64,000 nucleotides of DNA, taken from positions 1 through 64,000 of the forward strand of contig NZ_CP089469.1 in the NCBI RefSeq assembly GCF_021233435.1. The letters are read 5' to 3'. This DNA is from Halobacterium noricense (GTDB lineage: Archaea; Halobacteriota; Halobacteria; Halobacteriales; Halobacteriaceae). A program made the position numbers and the translations under genes. Positions 1 through 44,525 of this stretch are shown here, piece after piece (the first letter of the stretch is position 1; every line of letters starts with the position of its first letter). The notes under the pieces were generated by a model. That model saw only the letters and a program-made list of their open reading frames with translations. It did not search any database and was not told the DNA's origin.

Positions 1-47
1 AAACGACCAAAACGAACGAAACGAACATAACGAGAAAAACGAAGATA
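1..47 (+). repeat. Five tandem 9-bp AACGA units upstream of parA1
   Basis: AACGA begins at positions 2, 11, 20, 29 and 38, an exact 9-bp period, with one extra copy at 15. The array ends directly at the parA start codon and may continue to the left of the window. The same period and core recur inside the downstream partner gene. By analogy with the iterated sites bound by ribbon-helix-helix partition proteins, this is probably a centromere (parS-like) and autoregulatory operator. That role is inferred. Confidence 0.7.
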
Positions 48-866
48 ATGACTGACACCAATACCGCACGAATCACGGTAGCGAACCAGAAGGGAGGCGC
101 GGGGAAGACTACCGACGTCATTCATACTGGCGGCGCACTCTCTGCGCGAGGCCACGACGTCCTCCTGGTCGATATCGACTACCACGGAGGGCTCACCTGC
201 TCGCTTGGCTACAACGATCTGTACTACGACACCGACCGCACAACGCTGTTCGACGTCCTCGACTTCGACCAGATGGAGTCGGTGAACGACATCATCGTCG
301 AGCACGAGGAATTCGACATCCTTCCCGCCAGCGAGAAACTCGCGAACAACAAGAACATCCAGACGCTGCTTGAGGCGCCGAAGAGTCGCGAGCGGTTGGA
401 GATGACTCTCGACGAACTCGAGAAGGACTACGACTACATCATTGTCGACACGCCGCCATCCCTGAACGTCCTCACCGACAACGCCCTCGTCGCAACCGGC
501 AACGTCGTTATCCCCGTCATTCCCGAGAAGCTCAACGCCAACAGCCTCCAGATTTTCGCAAAGCAACTGAGTTCCCTCGAACAGGCGTACGGAGACATCA
601 ACCGGCTCGCCATCGTCTGTAACCGTGTCGAGCAGAACGCCGAGCACCGTGACACTATCGAGGAGATCAAGTCGGCGTACTCCCTCCCGGTGTTCGAGAT
701 CCCGAAGCGGACCGACCTCTCTCAGTCGATTGGCGAGGGTGTGTCCGTCTTCGGCTTCGGCAAGGAGAACCAGCGCGTCGAGGATGCACGCGACCTGTTC
801 AACGAGATCGCCGACCTGTTCGATGAGACGTTTGAGAAGACCGCACCTGAGGAGGTGGAAGCATGA
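48..866 (+). CDS. parA: ParA-family partition ATPase (locus 1)
   Basis: A deviant-Walker P-loop ATPase that would segregate the replicon. The N-terminus has the ParA signature NQKGGAGKTT (about residues 13-22) with the signature lysine. The second motif (Walker A') is DIDYHGG where DxDPQGN is usual. The Walker B-like segment is YIIVDTPPS. The length of 272 aa is normal for plasmid ParA/Soj proteins. It overlaps the partner gene by 4 bp (ATGA), so the two are translationally coupled. The start directly abuts the AACGA array, which suggests autoregulation. It differs in sequence from the second ParA at 40489, so the two loci are probably separate incompatibility systems. Confidence 0.93.
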   Translation: MTDTNTARITVANQKGGAGKTTDVIHTGGALSARGHDVLLVDIDYHGGLTCSLGYNDLYYDTDRTTLFDVLDFDQMESVNDIIVEHEEFDILPASEKLANNKNIQTLLEAPKSRERLEMTLDELEKDYDYIIVDTPPSLNVLTDNALVATGNVVIPVIPEKLNANSLQIFAKQLSSLEQAYGDINRLAIVCNRVEQNAEHRDTIEEIKSAYSLPVFEIPKRTDLSQSIGEGVSVFGFGKENQRVEDARDLFNEIADLFDETFEKTAPEEVEA

Positions 867-36129: not shown

Positions 36130-37626
36130 ATGACCCGGCCGCAGAAGGATAGCACTCCAGACCAAGCGGAAATCACTGACGACAGTGCAATACCCGATGT
36201 AGACGGCGAATCTGGTGCTGACAGTGAGACTGCTACGGAATCAGATTATGGATCTGCCGAGACTGACCCTGATTCGGACACAGAAGAGGGGAGCAGTACT
36301 AGCGGATTGAATGAGACGATTCGGGATCGCGTCGAGAGCCAACTGAACGAGAAGGATTCGACGACGTCAGTGTTTGCCAATAAGGACCTCGTTCACCCGG
36401 ATACGATCATTGACGCCAATCGCATCGTTGGTCGCGACGAGCAGCTAGATCGGATCATCGAACTACTCCTCCCCGCAGTGAAGGGAGGGCGGCAAGACAA
36501 TATTCTCCAATTCGGCCCCTCTGGAACGGGCAAATCCCTCATCATCAACGCGACTGCCGAGGAGGTCGCGACGCTCTGTGAGAATCGCGGTGTCGACTTC
36601 GGCGTCATTCGCATCAACTGCCAGCGGATCAGCTCCGAGGATAAAGCCGTCTACGCGATGCTGCAGGACGTGTCTGAGAAGACCGGTGCTGAGGTCGGCA
36701 TCAAAAAACAGGGAACGGCAACCTCAGACAAGTACGACCGCCTCTACGAGATCGTCAATGAACGCTTCGAGGCGATCCTATTCATCCTGGACGAGATCGA
36801 CTATCTCACCGGGAATAGCAACGACGACGAGCCGGATTACTCTCGACTGCTCTATCAACTCTCACGCGCTACCGCCGAGGGCGACATCGAAGGCCGGTCA
36901 GCAGTCGCTGCACTCACCAACGACACCCAGTTGATACAGAAATTGGATGGGCGGACAGCCAGTTCGTTCAATCCAGATAACGTCGTGTTCCCCGACTACG
37001 ACGCCACCCAGATTCGAGCCATCCTCGAGCATCGAGAAGATGCGTTCCGTGATGGCGTACTCTCCGGCGATGTGATACCGCTTGCCGCCGCGTTCGCTGC
37101 TCAAGACGAGGGTGACGCTCGGAAGGCAATCGACTTGCTCAGAAAGGCAGGTGAGATGGCCGACCGCGAAGGAAGCGGGACCGTCGAGGAGCGCCATGTT
37201 CGAACTGCACAGGGGAAACTCGACGTCGACCAAGCACAGAAGACGATCAACGGGCTCTCCGCGCAGAAAAAATACACTCTGTACGCCTTGACGTCGGTCG
37301 CTGTTCACGCGACTCGTTCACTCGATTCGATCCCCGGTCCAGTCGCCTATGAGGTCTACAGCTACGTGACCGAGAGCATCGATGCGGTCACGAAATCGGA
37401 CGATTCCTTCCGACGGTATGCAAAGGAATTAGCGTCGTACAACATCATCTCGAAGGATCGGAGCGGCCGCGGGCGCGGACGTGGTGTTCACAACGAGTAC
37501 GCCTTCGCTATCGATCCCGAGACTGTCGAAGAGACGATTGAGCGGGACAGCCGGATAACTGAGATCGAACAGGATTCCCTCCAGCTTGTCGTGGAATCCC
37601 AGCTCGACGAATTCAATAGCACGTGA
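36130..37626 (+). CDS. orc: Orc1/Cdc6 replication initiator
   Basis: A 498-aa AAA+ protein that binds the origin and loads the MCM helicase. The N-terminal 80 residues are acidic and low-complexity. Then Walker A GPSGTGKS (129-136), Walker B FILDEIDYL, the sensor-2-like GDARKAIDLLRKAGE, and a C-terminal winged helix. The stop TGA lies at the junction with the tnpB element right end, so the last residues may have been altered by that insertion. An origin-like region lies 1.6 kb away, beyond the insertion. Confidence 0.93.
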   Translation: MTRPQKDSTPDQAEITDDSAIPDVDGESGADSETATESDYGSAETDPDSDTEEGSSTSGLNETIRDRVESQLNEKDSTTSVFANKDLVHPDTIIDANRIVGRDEQLDRIIELLLPAVKGGRQDNILQFGPSGTGKSLIINATAEEVATLCENRGVDFGVIRINCQRISSEDKAVYAMLQDVSEKTGAEVGIKKQGTATSDKYDRLYEIVNERFEAILFILDEIDYLTGNSNDDEPDYSRLLYQLSRATAEGDIEGRSAVAALTNDTQLIQKLDGRTASSFNPDNVVFPDYDATQIRAILEHREDAFRDGVLSGDVIPLAAAFAAQDEGDARKAIDLLRKAGEMADREGSGTVEERHVRTAQGKLDVDQAQKTINGLSAQKKYTLYALTSVAVHATRSLDSIPGPVAYEVYSYVTESIDAVTKSDDSFRRYAKELASYNIISKDRSGRGRGRGVHNEYAFAIDPETVEETIERDSRITEIEQDSLQLVVESQLDEFNST

Positions 37627-39205: not shown

Positions 39206-39506
39206 CCCCCCGTTTGCTGATTGTATACTGTGAGAGGCCCCATGTGCAGAATGTATTCTCTCGATCTGGGGTCCGAGCATCATCGACGAACGTCTGACAG
39301 ACGTCATCCCCCCATTTACTGATTGTATCTCGCTACACCAGAGGAAGTCGGAGGTGGTATCGGAGGCAAGAGAACGTTCCCGCATTGCTCATCGAGGAAA
39401 TATTCGATAGACCAGCCGTAACAGCCCAGATCGGCTGTTGAGAACTGAAATCTTCCCAAGCGAACAGTCGCAACCCACCCTCTCCCCCCATTTACTGATT
39501 GTATCT
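39206..39506 (+). repeat. ORB-like repeats R1-R3, forward
   Basis: Three copies of a 23-bp unit, six C followed by ATTTACTGATTGTATCT, at 39206-39228 (three differences), 39308-39330 and 39484-39506 (the last two identical). The C6 run reads as a G-string on the other strand. Confidence 0.8.
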
Positions 39507-39530
39507 CACCAAAAGGCGGGTGGGGGTTGA

Positions 39531-39826
39531 GAGGAGAATCACGACAAGAATATCTAAAACCAGGAAAATCGCGCTTATAGACTTTGAGATAGCTGATCTG
39601 GTGAATATCTGCAACTAGGTTTGTAGATAGAAGGTTTTATGCAAAGGGACTGGTAACAATATCCGTAATACAGTAAGAGCGTAATGGAAAGGAAGATATA
39701 ATTTCTATATGGAGAGGAATGGCTTCGGAACTGTTCTTCGTCTTTATCTCCTCTAAACGTCTTCTAACAGCTGATCTCGACATTTTGGTCATTCTCGATA
39801 TTAGGATGTCCCCCGGCCCTTTCTCA
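39531..39826. other. AT-rich candidate unwinding element
   Basis: A stretch visibly poorer in G/C than its surroundings, with runs such as GAATATCTAAAA and GATATAATTTCTATAT, between the oppositely oriented repeats. No credible gene. Confidence 0.5.
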
Positions 39827-39874
39827 AGATACATTCCGCAAATGGGGGGAGGGGGAGCAATACAATCAGCAAAG
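39827..39874 (-). repeat. ORB-like repeats R4-R5, reverse
   Basis: R4 (39827-39849) is AGATACATTCCGCAAAT then six G, the reverse complement of the R1-R3 unit with a few changes. R5 (39859-39874, AATACAATCAGCAAAG) keeps the core without the G-string. Confidence 0.7.
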
Positions 39875-39902
39875 CAGTCGCTATATTCTCTCCTGCTCAA
39901 CG

Positions 39903-39943
39903 TTACCCCACGCCAGCGATCTATGATTGAATGCGTGGGGTAA
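39903..39943. repeat. 41-bp inverted repeat, TTACCCCACG variant, copy A
   Basis: Arms TTACCCCACG / CGTGGGGTAA, spacer 21 bp, 36 bp past the stop of the gene at 39979. Same length and spacing as the TTAACCAACA family; the arms fit TTAMCCMACR. Confidence 0.8.
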
Positions 39944-39978
39944 CTACAGGGAGAACCACTCGAGGATATCTGGAGCAA

Positions 39979-40371
39979 TCAAGATTCTCGGTTCGCGTTC
40001 ACCGGTGCGATATACTCGTTTTTCCAGGAGTCGCCGTCACGCCATTGCCAGTAAAAGTAGTGATAGCCCGGCTTCGTCTCTTTGATCGTGATGTAGGCTC
40101 CACCAGCTGGGACATCATCGTAGTCTGCTGGATCAGTCGAGACGTCTCGTTCCTCGAGTTCGTTCTGTTTGGCTTCGCTGATCGATTCCTCTTCCTGTTT
40201 TTGGTCAGCCATACGCTCGCGTTCGGCGCGTTTCCAAGCCGCCAGCTTCGTGGCATACGTTGCAATCGCATCGAGTCGATCGGGCGACTGCTTGTCCAGT
40301 GGTTCGAGAATATAGTTCGGTAGCTCTGGCGCTTGCGGTTCTGTTGTGGGCGGCTCTGAAGATTCGTCCAT
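39979..40371 (-). CDS. Hypothetical protein bracketed by TTACCCCACG inverted repeats
   Basis: A 130-aa protein: Pro/Glu-rich N-terminus, an Arg/Glu/Lys-rich helix (LAAWKRAERERMADQKQEEESISEAKQ), and a C-terminal aromatic beta segment (GYHYFYWQWRDGDSWKNEYIAP) like the YxYWR...KYIG motif of small plasmid proteins. The start lies 3 bp from one inverted repeat and the stop 36 bp from the other. It may bind them. Function unknown. Confidence 0.65.
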   Translation of the reverse strand: MDESSEPPTTEPQAPELPNYILEPLDKQSPDRLDAIATYATKLAAWKRAERERMADQKQEEESISEAKQNELEERDVSTDPADYDDVPAGGAYITIKETKPGYHYFYWQWRDGDSWKNEYIAPVNANRES

Positions 40372-40373
40372 AG

Positions 40374-40413
40374 TTACCCCACGTCTCGCTTTGAGTATCA
40401 ATATGTGGGGTAA
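40374..40413. repeat. 40-bp inverted repeat, TTACCCCACG variant, copy B
   Basis: Arms TTACCCCACG / TGTGGGGTAA, spacer 20 bp, 3 bp upstream of the gene at 39979-40371, where it would cover the promoter. Confidence 0.8.
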
Positions 40414-40459
40414 CTCAGACGGCAAGAGACCGAAACGCGTCTGACGTAGTTATTTGAAG

Positions 40460-40477
40460 TCACAGAAAGCACAGAAC
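40460..40477 (+). repeat. 9-bp CACAGAA repeats upstream of parA2
   Basis: TCACAGAAA at 40460 followed by GCACAGAAC at 40469, an exact 9-bp step, ending 2 bp before the first possible parA start. The same 9-mer recurs in the partner gene. Confidence 0.7.
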
Positions 40478-40488
40478 GGATGGAAGCC

Positions 40489-41259
40489 ATGACTCGGAGA
40501 ATCGGGATCACGAATCAGAAGGGAGGTGTGAGTAAAACCACGAATACAATCAACGTCGCTGGCGGGCTCGCTGCCGATGGTGTAGACGTTCTCGCCGTCG
40601 ATATGGACCCTCAGGGATACCTCACGCATCGGCTTGGGTTCGAAGACGAGTACACTTCGGACCCACCGTCGCTATACGATGCGCTTCAGTCGCCCGCCGA
40701 CCACGACGTCGACGATCTCGTTGTCACTCACGAGGAGTTCGATCTCCTTCCGGCCAACATCGATATGTTCCATCTTGAGCAGGACCTCATCGCGAGCGGG
40801 ATGCGTCCCCGGCTGCGGTTGAAGACGGTCCTGGAGAACGCGACCGCGTGGGACGTCGTCCTTATCGATGCGCCGCCGTCGCTCGGCCCACTGAATGATA
40901 ACGTCGTTCTTGCCACCGAGGAACTGCTCGTCCCGGTCGAAGCCGACGAAAGTTCCCAGCTCGCGCTCAATCATCTACTCCGCCAGTTGGATACGCTCGA
41001 GGATAACTACGACACACACGTCGATGTCCTCGGTCTCATTGTTTCGAACGTGGCCTATCCGCTGGACAATGAACAGCAGGCGGCCATTGACTGGTTCAAC
41101 GAGCGTTTCGAAGGACGCGTCGGGGTGTGGACCGTTCGAAGCCGGGCAGCAATCAAGCGGGCAGTGAAAGACCAGGGTTCGGTGTTCGCCGAAGACGCCG
41201 AGGAAGTCGATATGACCGACGTGTATGCGCAGATAGCTGCGGAGGTGGCCGATGAGTGA
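40489..41259 (+). CDS. parA: ParA-family partition ATPase (locus 2)
   Basis: A 256-aa ATPase with NQKGGVSKTT (the usual GVGKTT has Ser in place of Gly), Walker A' DMDPQGYLT, and VVLIDAPPS. It probably partitions the replicon whose origin lies just upstream. It overlaps the partner gene by 8 bp. The start is taken at MTRRIGIT; an ATG at 40480 would add three residues. Confidence 0.93.
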   Translation: MTRRIGITNQKGGVSKTTNTINVAGGLAADGVDVLAVDMDPQGYLTHRLGFEDEYTSDPPSLYDALQSPADHDVDDLVVTHEEFDLLPANIDMFHLEQDLIASGMRPRLRLKTVLENATAWDVVLIDAPPSLGPLNDNVVLATEELLVPVEADESSQLALNHLLRQLDTLEDNYDTHVDVLGLIVSNVAYPLDNEQQAAIDWFNERFEGRVGVWTVRSRAAIKRAVKDQGSVFAEDAEEVDMTDVYAQIAAEVADE

Positions 41260-41635
41260 CGAAATCGACGAACGTCTGAGCCGTCGGTTTGACGACGACC
41301 AGGACGACGAGAACGAGACCATTTCTGAGAAGTCACAGAACGACATGAATTCTAGTCAATCAGGGGCCGAGAGGAAGTCACAGGCTTCACAGAGAGCACA
41401 GAACATCAAGAAGGAATGGAATGTGCGGAGTTTCTACCTCGATGACGGCCTCGATAGTAATCTCACGACGGCGTTCAAACGACTGGATCTCTCGCTTTCG
41501 GAGGCTGACGCCGAGGTCAATCTCAAGAAGACACGGCACTTCTACCCATTGATCGTCGAACTCGGTCTAGAACGCTTGGCGGAAATGGACGTCACAGAAG
41601 TCACAGAACGATTGGACGACGAAGATTCAGCATAG
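41252..41635 (+). CDS. ParA partner protein (locus 2)
   Basis: A 127-aa acidic protein, homologous to the partner at 863 over the C-terminal 80 residues (NIKKEWNVRSFYLDDGL...RHFYPLIVELGLERLAE). The N-terminal linker differs and follows its own DNA repeat. It probably binds the CACAGAA sites and stimulates ParA. A C-terminal fragment of a near-identical gene lies at 43644-43751. Confidence 0.8.
   Translation: MSDEIDERLSRRFDDDQDDENETISEKSQNDMNSSQSGAERKSQASQRAQNIKKEWNVRSFYLDDGLDSNLTTAFKRLDLSLSEADAEVNLKKTRHFYPLIVELGLERLAEMDVTEVTERLDDEDSA
41333..41404 (+). repeat. 9-bp phased CACAGA repeats inside partner gene 2, linker part
   Basis: TCACAGAAC at 41333, TCACAGGCT at 41378, TCACAGAGA at 41387 and GCACAGAAC at 41396; the intervals are all multiples of 9. 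Read in codon phase as Ser-Gln-x / Ala-Gln-x. Confidence 0.72.
41592..41609 (+). repeat. 9-bp CACAGAA repeats at the 3' end of partner gene 2
   Basis: TCACAGAAG at 41592 and TCACAGAAC at 41601. Here they are read as Val-Thr-Glu, a different codon phase from the copies in the linker, so the DNA, not the peptide, is conserved. Confidence 0.75.
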
Positions 41636-41702
41636 GCGATTTCGATTACTCTCCCACGACACTCTTATGTATGACTGGGACGAAGTAATGAATTGAGGGA
41701 GT

Positions 41703-42011
41703 ATGAGTAAAGCAGAGTCTGAAAAAGTAGTGTCTGTATCGTCGCGCGGCCAAGCGACCATTCCCAAAGAGTTCCGGGAGGAACTCGACATCGACACACC
41801 CGGCCGCGTGAAGTTCGTTCGCACCGAGGAGGGCGAAATCGTCGTCCGTCCCATCCACTCGGTCACAGACCTGCGTGGAGTCTTGGAAGGGAAAACCGAC
41901 GAGCAGGGTCGTTCAGCAGTCGAACGACTGCGGGAGGAACGCGAGCAGGACAAGGCTAGTGAAGAGGAGTTGCGGCAGCGCTACGCCAGTGATGACGAGG
42001 CCGACACATGA
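41703..42011 (+). CDS. AbrB/MazE-type antitoxin
   Basis: A 102-aa protein with a SpoVT/AbrB swapped-hairpin DNA-binding domain (VVSVSSRGQATIPKEFREELDI) followed by a helical tail that would block the toxin. It overlaps the PIN gene by 4 bp. Likely represses its own operon. Confidence 0.88.
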   Translation: MSKAESEKVVSVSSRGQATIPKEFREELDIDTPGRVKFVRTEEGEIVVRPIHSVTDLRGVLEGKTDEQGRSAVERLREEREQDKASEEELRQRYASDDEADT

Positions 42012-42436
42012 CAGAGGGGACTGACATTCCCGAGACGATTATCTTCGACGCCGAACCACTCATCGCCTATTTCTGCAACGAACCAGGGAGCGACACCGTC
42101 GAGACGTACGTCGACGCCGTCGAAGGCGCGGCCGATGGATACATCTCAGCGATCAACCTCGCCGAGGTCCACTACGTCGTGCGTGCAATCGACGGCGAGG
42201 AACGCGCTGATGCTGTCGTCGACGTCCTCGAGGAAAGCGGCATCCGTCGCGTCGATACCGAACAGACCTGGGCGTCAGCAGCCGACTTCAAATTCCGCTA
42301 CGCTCCAGCGCTCGGTGATGCCTTCGCGCTCGGGACTGCAGCACACGTCGACGGGATGCTCCTGGTCGGTGCCGACGACGACTACGACGACGTCACCGAC
42401 GTCCCAATCACTCGGTTCCGGACCGAACCGGCATAG
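42008..42436 (+). CDS. vapC: PIN-domain ribonuclease toxin (VapC-like)
   Basis: A 142-aa PIN-domain protein. The acidic metal-binding residues are visible: Asp in IIFDAEPLIA, Glu in INLAEVHY, Asp in ALGDAFALGTA, Asp in LVGADDDYD. VapC toxins cut tRNA or rRNA; the target here is unknown. Coupled to the AbrB-type antitoxin, a likely plasmid-stabilising module. Confidence 0.88.
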   Translation: MTEGTDIPETIIFDAEPLIAYFCNEPGSDTVETYVDAVEGAADGYISAINLAEVHYVVRAIDGEERADAVVDVLEESGIRRVDTEQTWASAADFKFRYAPALGDAFALGTAAHVDGMLLVGADDDYDDVTDVPITRFRTEPA

Positions 42437-42463
42437 ACCCTGGATCTCGTCCCATAGTGGCCG

Positions 42464-43339
42464 CTATGAGTGCTCCTCTGTCCGCTCTTCGAGAAACTCT
42501 CGCAGTTTCGATTCGAAAGACGGTGGAGTAGCCCCGAACGTTGACGCTGCAGATTCGACCACTTCGTCAGTCTCGGCTTCCTCTTGTATCGTTCCCAGTC
42601 CGTAGAGCACTGTGCGGACGACCTCACTGTAGAATTCCTCTTCGTCGTAGCAGAATTGACAGTCGTTTCGCCAGTAGTCGGGGACGAACTGCACACCGAG
42701 TGCCTGGTGTTTGGGACAGATTCCTTTGCGAACCTGCCCGATGTTTCGGAATTCGACCTCCCACGTTCCGTCAGGGGCGATCTCAACGACGAAGTACGCG
42801 CCGAGAAGCGCGTCTGCACCATGGTCTGCCGTTCGGTAGAGGAATGCGGTATTGAGAGCCTTGTTCTTGTAGCGACCGGTGTGTATATGACCAGAGAAGT
42901 ATGCCTTCCCCGCGAAGTGTTCCAGCAGTTCGGGGTGCCAGTAGTGATTCACGAGGATTGTCTCGTCTTCAACTAGTTCGGGATTCTGCGTGAATGTCTC
43001 TCCAGCAACGGTGATACTGTCATCTTCGGGGATGTACGTCCCTGGAAGGTCGTAGTCTTGGAACGGCTGTTCCGGGCCGATTGCCCCGTCCCGATTCCCC
43101 CAGATGTAGAGGAGCTCTCCCCGCTCGTGGAGCGTCTCGAAATACGGCGTGACCGCATCGAGCTGTTCCCGCCCCTCGTCGACGCCATCAAACCATGCGT
43201 TCGTGATATCGCCGACGTGAATTACGAAGTCGAATTCCTCGCCTTCAGTACCGTCGACGACCCGCTCCAGTGAGTCGACATCCCCGTGGTTGTCTCCCAT
43301 ACAAAGAAGTCGGAGCGTCTCATCATCGTTAGTCGTCAT
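42464..43339 (-). CDS. Calcineurin-like metallophosphoesterase
   Basis: A 291-aa enzyme with all five metallophosphoesterase motifs: MGDNHGD, HVGDITN, GNRDG, VNHYWH and SGHIHTGRY. A C-terminal zinc-binding region follows (CPKHQAL...CQFCYDEEEF). YfcE-like, but with added C-terminal domain. Start at MTTNDDE. Convergent with the VapBC-like pair. Substrate unknown. Confidence 0.85.
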   Translation of the reverse strand: MTTNDDETLRLLCMGDNHGDVDSLERVVDGTEGEEFDFVIHVGDITNAWFDGVDEGREQLDAVTPYFETLHERGELLYIWGNRDGAIGPEQPFQDYDLPGTYIPEDDSITVAGETFTQNPELVEDETILVNHYWHPELLEHFAGKAYFSGHIHTGRYKNKALNTAFLYRTADHGADALLGAYFVVEIAPDGTWEVEFRNIGQVRKGICPKHQALGVQFVPDYWRNDCQFCYDEEEFYSEVVRTVLYGLGTIQEEAETDEVVESAASTFGATPPSFESKLREFLEERTEEHS

Positions 43340-43476
43340 TAGTTGACTCCCCGTACTCACTCAGGTGTATAGAAGACCACGTTCACCGTCAAGGAGATAT
43401 CTCATAACAGTCTCTCACTGCTATTCTTGCTAGTCCTTCTCTCCTTAGTGCGAAGCCCCTCTCTGGTTCTTCTGCA

Positions 43477-43499
43477 AGATACATTCAGCAAATGGGGGG
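43477..43499 (-). repeat. Orphan ORB-like repeat R6
   Basis: AGATACATTCAGCAAAT followed by six G, an almost exact reverse copy of the origin repeats, 3.6 kb away from the others and next to gene fragments. Confidence 0.7.
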
Positions 43500-43506
43500 T
43501 GCGATA

Positions 43507-43587
43507 GATGCCAGCCGACTCCAGTACATCTTCATGCTGCGCCGCCTCGAGCTGGTGCAAAGCCTGGTGGATGAGCCGGCCAATTCC
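43507..43587 (+). pseudogene. Fragment of HVO_A0114-type antitoxin gene
   Basis: Encodes DASRLQYIFMLRRLELVQSLVDEPANS, the match of DTSRLQRVLTPRRLELVRSLMEEPAES in the gene at 43882. No start, no end: a remnant. It lies between R6 and a degenerate ORB-like sequence (CCCCATTTCACCGATT, 43586). Confidence 0.65.
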
Positions 43588-43643
43588 CCATTTCACCGAT
43601 TTTCGCTACGCGTGATCGGTGAACCACTTGCTGTGAACTCACG

Positions 43644-43751
43644 AAGATGTGCCACTTCTACCCGCTGATCGTCGAACTCGGCTTGGAACGCTTGGCGGGA
43701 ATGGAAGTCACAGAAGTCACAGAACGATTGGAAAGCAAGGATTTGGGATAA
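43644..43751 (+). pseudogene. C-terminal fragment of a ParA partner gene
   Basis: Encodes CHFYPLIVELGLERLAGMEVTEVTERLESKDLG, the end of the partner at 41252. Both 9-bp repeats (TCACAGAAG, TCACAGAAC) are kept. No functional protein is expected, but the fragment could still act as a weak partition site. Confidence 0.8.
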
Positions 43752-43881
43752 TTGCAGAGGGCGGATACCAGCGTTGTTCATTCACCACAACAACCCTCTA
43801 CCATACGCGCGTTGTCCTACATGGACAATACAGATGCCCCGATGTAGGCGTCAAAAATCCTCGAAGAGGTCGATCCCATCC

Positions 43882-44330
43882 ATGAGCAAGCATTCGCCTG
43901 ACCACCTGCACGAATCCCCGGCGGACGCCGAGTATTCCTCGACGCTCCGAATCACGTCGACGCCGTTCGAGGAGCACACGGAGAGTGTGCTGAACCGCGC
44001 TGAGCGCTGGGAGCAGGGCGAAGCGGTGCCCACGTCGTCAACTTCCAGGACACCAGCCGGCTCCAGCGCGTTCTCACGCCGCGCCGCCTGGAGCTGGTAC
44101 GGAGTCTGATGGAGGAGCCAGCCGAGAGCATCCGCGCCCTTACCGACCGCCTCGACCGGGACGTCCGTCAGGTTCACGACGACCTGCAGATCCTGAGCGA
44201 GTACCGTATCGTTCACTTCCGCGAAGCGGGCAGCGCGAAGCAGCCCCACGTTCCCTACGACACGGTGAAGATCGAGGTCGAACTCACTACGTCGGTCGGT
44301 GACACCTCAGAGTCGTCGACGTCCGCGTAG
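43882..44330 (+). pseudogene. Frameshifted HVO_A0114-type DNA-binding protein
   Basis: The first part (MSKHSPDHLHESPADAEYSS...RWEQGEAVP) and the rest (HVVNFQDTSRLQRVLTPRRLELV...KQPHVPYDTVKIEVELT) are in different frames; one base is missing near 44030. Rejoined, it is a full wHTH of this family. It is followed by a 50-aa partner-like gene. Antitoxin-like, probably inactive. Confidence 0.72.
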
Positions 44331-44372
44331 CCGTCCACAAGCTTATTCCACCCGAGCGCCGACATTTCATCA

Positions 44373-44525
44373 ATGAGTCGCCACTCTGCTGGCGATGACC
44401 GCAAGAGCGATGCCGAGGACGGGGGTCGTCCTGAGGTTCCCGAGGGCATTCTTCGCGGTATTGAGGACATCGCCGAAGGGAATACAGCGAGCAAAGAGGA
44501 TCTCGAGTCTGTCCTGAAGTACTGA
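44373..44525 (+). CDS. 50-aa hypothetical protein
   Basis: Encodes MSRHSAGDDRKSDAEDG...GILRGIEDIAEGNTASKEDLESVLKY. Acidic and helical, with a sensible ATG 42 bp past the antitoxin-like pseudogene. It may have been part of that toxin-antitoxin unit. Confidence 0.5.
   Translation: MSRHSAGDDRKSDAEDGGRPEVPEGILRGIEDIAEGNTASKEDLESVLKY

Follow-up and report, generated by a model that had tools for sequence, protein, structure and literature searches.

Lineage-specific 9-bp words before parA and inside the partner gene of a widespread candidate partition system in haloarchaea

Locus 2 of the window (the whole 64-kb stretch of DNA analyzed) is an operon in which parA is followed by a small, overlapping partner gene (table 1). 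The first product is a ParA/MinD-type ATPase of 259 aa if translated from the ATG at 40480, or of 256 aa if translated from the ATG at 40489; homologues favor the shorter form, and a relative is annotated from the second ATG. The partner has no sequence relative in Pfam, NCBIfam or PDB, a ParB domain was found by Pfam and NCBIfam searches neither in it nor in 71 of its relatives, and the two PHROGs that match it (29165 and 26668) are both of unknown function. In the full-length AlphaFold2 model (pLDDT 72.5) an N-terminal helix (residues 3-14) containing RLSRRF is followed by a disordered stretch (residues 20-47) and a helical C-terminal domain. The model of the core (pLDDT 88) consists of an extended stretch and then three helices, an order compatible with a ribbon-helix-helix protein, the DNA-binding fold of type Ib partners. 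Since the domain has neither a sequence match nor, with both models as queries (full length and core), a significant Foldseek match, this fold is not confirmed, and an hhalign profile comparison of the partner with a ribbon-helix-helix-like protein of the window gave no match.

Table 1. Features of the two loci in the window, and repeat words of relative loci (W1, AACGA-type word of locus 1; W2, CACAGA-type word of locus 2; L numbers, relative loci).
Feature	Location	Strand	Remarks
Locus 1 words, AACGA at exact 9-bp spacing before parA1	1..43	+	
parA1, 272 aa	48..866	+	
Partner gene 1, 135 aa	863..1270	+	C-terminal domain homologous to that of the locus 2 partner
GTCTGAC element	40439..40445	+	50 nt 5' of the ParA ATG at 40489, directly before TATA-like TTATTT (40450-40455)
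Locus 2 upstream word pair TCACAGAAA (40460) and GCACAGAAC (40469)	40460..40477	+	Candidate operator/centromere
parA, locus 2	40480..41259	+	Pfam AAA_31 2.3e-35; PHROG 164 ParA-like 5e-48
Partner gene, locus 2, 127 aa	41252..41635	+	8-nt overlap with the 3' end of parA; candidate centromere-binding protein
Linker word TCACAGAAC	41333..41341	+	Ser-Gln-Asn
Three adjoining linker words TCACAGGCT (41378), TCACAGAGA (41387) and GCACAGAAC (41396)	41378..41404	+	
Tail words TCACAGAAG (41592) and TCACAGAAC (41601)	41592..41609	+	Val-Thr-Glu-Val-Thr-Glu; phase differs from the linker copies
3' relic of a related partner gene	43638..43752	+	87% identical to the partner tail; two tail words kept (43708-43725)
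Word TCACAGAAC (W2)	L001-L003, L020, L021		
AACGA-type word	W1 and 14 other representatives		
Word GTTAAACAAGATAA	L006, L153		
Word CAGATAATCTGGATAAT	L179, L190		
Word GCATTGCA	L004, L008		
Word GGAACGCA/AAAGAACG	L148, L155 and others		
Word TTGGAGAGT	L191		
Word GTTTGGAC	L106, L168		
Word GTTTAGAC	L172		
Word CTCAAAGAG	phiCh1		

The sequence-only reading had listed eight copies of a CACAGA 9-mer, two ahead of parA, four within the linker of the partner and two near the 3' end of the partner gene, and had stated that they are read in two codon phases. All eight positions are real, with the core CACAGA at 9-bp steps, the first of the three adjoining linker words being degenerate (CACAGG for CACAGA), and so are the two phases: the linker copies are read as TCA/GCA-CAG-x (Ser/Ala-Gln) and the tail copies as GTC-ACA-GAA (Val-Thr-Glu). 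The upstream pair sits between a TATA-like box and the parA start, a placement shared by the relatives L001-L003. Residues encoded by the linker words fall inside or adjoin the disordered stretch; those encoded by the tail words belong to the region of the last helix, and the partner tail is thus not unstructured. Each of the six free codons within the words (S, S, S, A, T, T) has A as its third base; they are the rare TCA, GCA and ACA, for which window codon usage gives a naive probability of 3.5e-6.

A single CACAGA is barely more frequent in the window than expected (42 against 32.1). The 9-bp tandem, with up to one mismatch allowed, has six matches against 0.31 expected, and 0 of 100 shuffles equaled it. 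Across the 3.3-Mb genome the exact tandem CACAGANNNCACAGA occurs eight times, with no occurrence on the reverse strand and none of a reversed-pattern control, and all eight belong to two identical copies of locus 2 and to partner-gene relics on one 368.6-kb contig. Chance as the origin of the locus 2 words is ruled out by the window shuffles together with this genome-wide count. Two of the words, those of the relic in table 1, had not been listed before, and the same applies to the second copy of locus 2, at about 194.5 kb on that contig: window positions 39417-44417 and G000:C2:193500-198500 are 100% identical, the locus and its flanks being thereby present twice over at least 5 kb. A search of the same genome for an extended GTCTGACGTA element was uninformative, as the pattern fails to match locus 2 itself.

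Locus 1 opens the window and follows this layout with another word. Five copies of AACGA before parA1 are in register and one is off-register, and when the end of the contig (C2:368,310-368,639) is read ahead of its start, the array reaches about 290 nt upstream in clusters. The linker of partner 1 carries AACGA words as well (940-1034). Along 79 residues of their C-terminal parts the two partners are 37% identical, and in the ParAs of both loci the AAA_31 match begins at residue 6-9.

Relatives were gathered by a profile search with the partner in 391 class-level haloarchaeal genomes, 192 of which contain at least one. The profile also matched 65 loci in contigs of named genomes and 2 in contigs of viruses; among haloviruses, phiH and phiCh1 carry relatives and ChaoS9 a weak match. 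A parA gene lies directly upstream of 198 of the 212 partner matches whose loci were fetched, giving 198 parA-partner pairs, and after removal of near-copies 70 divergent representative loci were retained. This candidate partition system, with a partner family that is uncharacterised, is widespread, extending to about half of the sampled haloarchaeal genomes. Contigs with two partner genes occur elsewhere too (G367:C3, G383:C4, L102/L103 and L077/L079), some with identical scores, which indicates that duplicated partition loci on one replicon recur in other haloarchaea.

The family-wide comparison that the sequence-only reading had set beforehand as its refutation test was run on the representatives and came down on the side of that reading: the words before parA resemble the linker and tail of their own locus far more closely than they do ParA or the partners of other loci. 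Expressed as the percentage of a region covered by 8-mers shared, on either strand, with the 60 nt before parA, the match reaches 11.2% in linkers and 5.7% in tails, compared with 2.05% in the partner core, 0.9% in the partner N-terminus, 1.1% in ParA and 1.1-1.3% downstream. Swapping linkers between loci lowers the value from 11.2% to 2.8%. A value of 2.8% is likewise obtained for the region from -1500 to -61, in part owing to arrays, like the one at locus 1, that extend past 60 nt. The upstream region matches its own partner better than its own ParA (Wilcoxon p = 1e-8). With dinucleotide-shuffled upstream regions as the null, the match is significant at p <= 0.05 in 25 of 69 loci and at p <= 0.01 in 14, compared with three and none, respectively, for equal-length stretches of ParA; it is absent (p > 0.5) in 15 of the 69, mostly divergent ones. 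In 21 of 70 loci, shuffling the partner synonymously weakens the match with p <= 0.05 (our own tally of the result table), and both loci of the window are among the strongest. The dinucleotide test has little power on self-repetitive words such as AACGAAACGA; at locus 1 it gives p = 0.17, yet in the synonymous test the count is 0 of 200.

Periodicity is a further property common to the coding and noncoding parts. A 9-bp period is significant in 54 of 70 linkers and 35 of 70 upstream regions, against none of 70 ParA controls, and among periods of 4 to 15 it is the strongest in 56 linkers, 37 upstream regions and 12 ParA stretches (5.8 expected by chance). The partner linker of ChaoS9 (L220, 1271-1819) holds a long array whose 9-bp unit is GAAACGACT (AACGA-type), a word that is not found in the region before its parA.

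Which word a locus carries depends on the lineage (table 1). When nine word classes, assigned by eye with 31 rows left out, are placed on a ParA tree built without the partner or the words, at least eight changes are required, each of them seen both upstream and inside the partner gene. Site and putative reader change together, and each lineage has its own word. The earlier proposal of one repeat per pair holds to the extent that the word is lineage-specific and changes jointly at both sites; it is not strict, as the loci that could be classified fall into about nine word groups and one genome, G341, combines two loci of the AACGA cluster, each on its own contig. Similarly, the idea that each pair has its own cognate repeat is borne out by the own-locus matching, with the reservation that in about one-fifth of the divergent loci no match is detectable. 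Between loci residing in the same genome, the own match amounts to 52 nt and the cross match to 27 nt, the latter equaling the between-genome background (27). In some pairs the non-cognate match exceeds the cognate one (the upstream regions of L147 on L185, L154 on L184 and L164 on L182); this, together with the two AACGA-cluster loci of G341, is why we do not claim a strict exclusion of equal words between co-resident loci.

The placement of the words relative to reading frame and strand is equally varied. In L106 the word lies on opposite strands of one gene, as CCGTCCAAACCGTCC in the linker (Lys-Pro-Ser) and as GGTTTGGACGGTTTGGAC in the tail (Gly-Leu-Asp-Gly-Leu-Asp), and L168 and L172 are arranged likewise; L007 and phiCh1 have their upstream words in the opposite orientation to those of the linker. 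Of the 50 loci in which an upstream 7-mer is repeated, 30 show it in at least two phase or orientation classes. The upstream-internal matches, the two phases, the strand reversals and the shuffle controls all bear out the DNA-level role that had been proposed for the word, and the selection acting on these words is selection on DNA.

How do these loci compare with known partition systems? Type Ib systems have a ParA of 192-308 aa and a partner of 46-131 aa (PMC3235114), the latter binding repeats that serve as both operator and centromere (PMC3235114, PMC5016525). The haloarchaeal ParAs of the window (256-259 and 272 aa) lie in this range, possess Walker motifs and are devoid of an N-terminal DNA-binding domain; of the partners, encoded directly downstream, that of 127 aa is in range and that of 135 aa slightly above it; and, at the level of sequence, repeats are found upstream, overlapping the promoter. 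Small ParA, small downstream partner and short tandem repeats overlapping the promoter are thus shared with TP228 ParFGH, pSM19035 delta-omega, pB171 and pMF1, and in pMF1 iterons are found inside other ORFs as well (PMC3235114). In contrast to type Ib, the haloarchaeal partner is a member of an uncharacterised family for which neither Pfam nor NCBIfam has a model, and the array continues in the linker and tail of the partner, in several phases and orientations and with lineage-specific words. SCP2 of Streptomyces (ParA-ParT-parS) resembles the haloarchaeal loci in that parS is located in the coding region for its centromere-binding protein, but its site is a single 18-bp inverted repeat, ParT is ParB-like, and the available part of the source reports no matching upstream array (PMC12260392). 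The SegAB system of Sulfolobales is similar in its archaeal ParA-like ATPase, the 3'-overlapping gene of an archaea-specific partner and the partner sites just upstream; SegB, however, is a ribbon-helix-helix protein with a conserved 13-bp palindrome distributed across the chromosome (PMC5120986, PMC12284271), whereas the haloarchaeal words are lineage-specific 9-bp direct repeats, W2 being confined to its locus. The SegB-type palindrome TCTAGA-S-TCTAGA is not matched by the upstream words of the loci inspected. Features of type Ia ParB/Spo0J, an N-terminal CTPase domain of ParB and a universal parS palindrome, are missing, given that no ParB domain was found and that the words are mostly nonpalindromic direct repeats. 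In Bacillus subtilis Soj/Spo0J a parS site also lies inside the spo0J coding sequence; that system differs in its 16-bp parS palindrome, which is universal and present in many copies on the chromosome, and in its protein of ParB/CTPase fold.

We consider it probable, on the strength of sizes, gene order and promoter-overlapping direct repeats, that these pairs form a type Ib-like partition system in which the repeats bound by the partner serve as operator and centromere, a part of which lies in the partner's own gene. ParA would be the small Walker ATPase of a plasmid-partition operon and the overlapping gene would encode the centromere-binding protein, whose Arg-rich N-terminal helix (RLSRRF) probably contacts ParA and whose C-terminal helical domain, beyond the disordered linker, may bind the tandem 9-bp words. 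Those that follow the TATA-like box and precede parA would then act as operator, in autorepression, and as centromere, whereas those of the linker and tail may offer further binding sites of the same centromere in places where the protein tolerates almost any sequence. In phiH1, the mapped start of transcript T7 precedes the parA homologue by 5 nt and is no more than about 30 nt away from the words. From the fit to type Ib we infer that the partner, as the reader of the arrays, represses the operon and, by coupling DNA to ParA, partitions the replicon. Lineage-specific words would keep co-resident replicons separate, and the specificity of reading may underlie incompatibility.

Other explanations of the words deserve attention. 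They could mark a replication or recombination site and be read by ParA, Orc1/Cdc6 or a host protein. Iterons can serve replication, and an orc1/cdc6 gene (36130-37626) is located 3 kb upstream of locus 2; yet the word changes with the parA-partner lineage, resides inside partner genes in many backgrounds and shows no tie to orc1, which makes this scenario quite improbable. Alternatively, the words might be operators only, bound by the partner or by some other regulator, the upstream ones repressing and the in-gene ones tightening control through looping or a roadblock, with the true centromere elsewhere. Their location between the TATA-like box and the start, with which the mapped phiH1 start agrees, favors such a role, but the tandem CACAGA word is found nowhere else in the genome, so that no separate array of it exists, and the clustered 9-bp repeats over about 290 nt upstream of locus 1 far exceed the needs of an operator. 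Given, in addition, that operator and centromere commonly overlap in type Ib (PMC3235114, PMC5016525), we regard this alternative as unlikely.

Could the words instead act in RNA or in protein? An RNA-level role, in which the partner recognizes the repeats of its own mRNA and controls translation, would agree with the sense orientation of the W2 linker and tail copies and with a phiH1 transcript that begins just before parA. It is hardly credible in view of the opposite strands taken by upstream and internal words in L007 and phiCh1, and by linker and tail words in L106, L168 and L172, and of locus 1 words that precede the start by more than 280 nt and probably do not form part of the transcript. 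As to protein, the linker could be simply a Ser/Thr/Gln-rich stretch of low complexity, its likeness to the upstream region resulting from coincidence or base composition. Nine base pairs do correspond to three residues, and acidic Ser/Thr-rich linkers are common in haloarchaea. Nevertheless, the noncoding upstream DNA has the same word with the same 9-bp period, neither synonymous nor dinucleotide shuffles reproduce the match, and one word occurs in two phases and two orientations with the rare codons TCA, GCA and ACA chosen; for W2 the shuffle and orientation results already contradict this account, which we judge very improbable overall.

Within the type Ib-like reading, which assigns the word a probable function in partition, the chances seem to us evenly balanced that the partner's own coding sequence is a major part of the centromere that its domain reads, in other words a self-templated centromere. 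If so, the DNA word would dictate residues of the linker and tail (Ser-Gln-Asn, Val-Thr-Glu, Lys-Pro-Ser, Gly-Leu-Asp, Glu-Arg-Met), and word and reader would diversify jointly, generating many mutually compatible partition identities among haloarchaeal plasmids and proviruses. One word set in different phases and on different strands of the same gene is a case of selection on a DNA site reshaping protein sequence. A full-text literature search, mainly of papers outside subscription journals, found almost no mechanistic publication on haloarchaeal plasmid partition and no account of a haloarchaeal system whose upstream words match those within the partner gene. Since a gene-internal parS is already known, the haloarchaeal arrays upstream and within the gene represent a variant on that theme. 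The survey provides a probable DNA site for many members of the family, together with a ready test of specificity and incompatibility.

A second conserved element accompanies the words. GTCTGAC is present in 37 of the 70 representative loci (0.4 expected), in 36 of these at 41-70 nt before the parA start and in most at 41-61 nt, and adjoins the TATA-like box regardless of which repeat word the locus carries; it is possibly a shared promoter or activator site.

The surroundings of locus 2 show additional features. Just before it, two inverted GTTACCCCAC(G) pairs (39902-39944 and 40372-40415) flank a small minus-strand ORF (39979-40425). Directly 3' of the operon are genes for an AbrB/MazE-type antitoxin and a PIN-domain toxin (41703-42436), which also follow the operon in pHSAL2 and, with a transposase gene between them, in pHTIA. 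The partner relic comes after this toxin-antitoxin pair and a phosphoesterase gene, and is found downstream in L045 and L046 as well.
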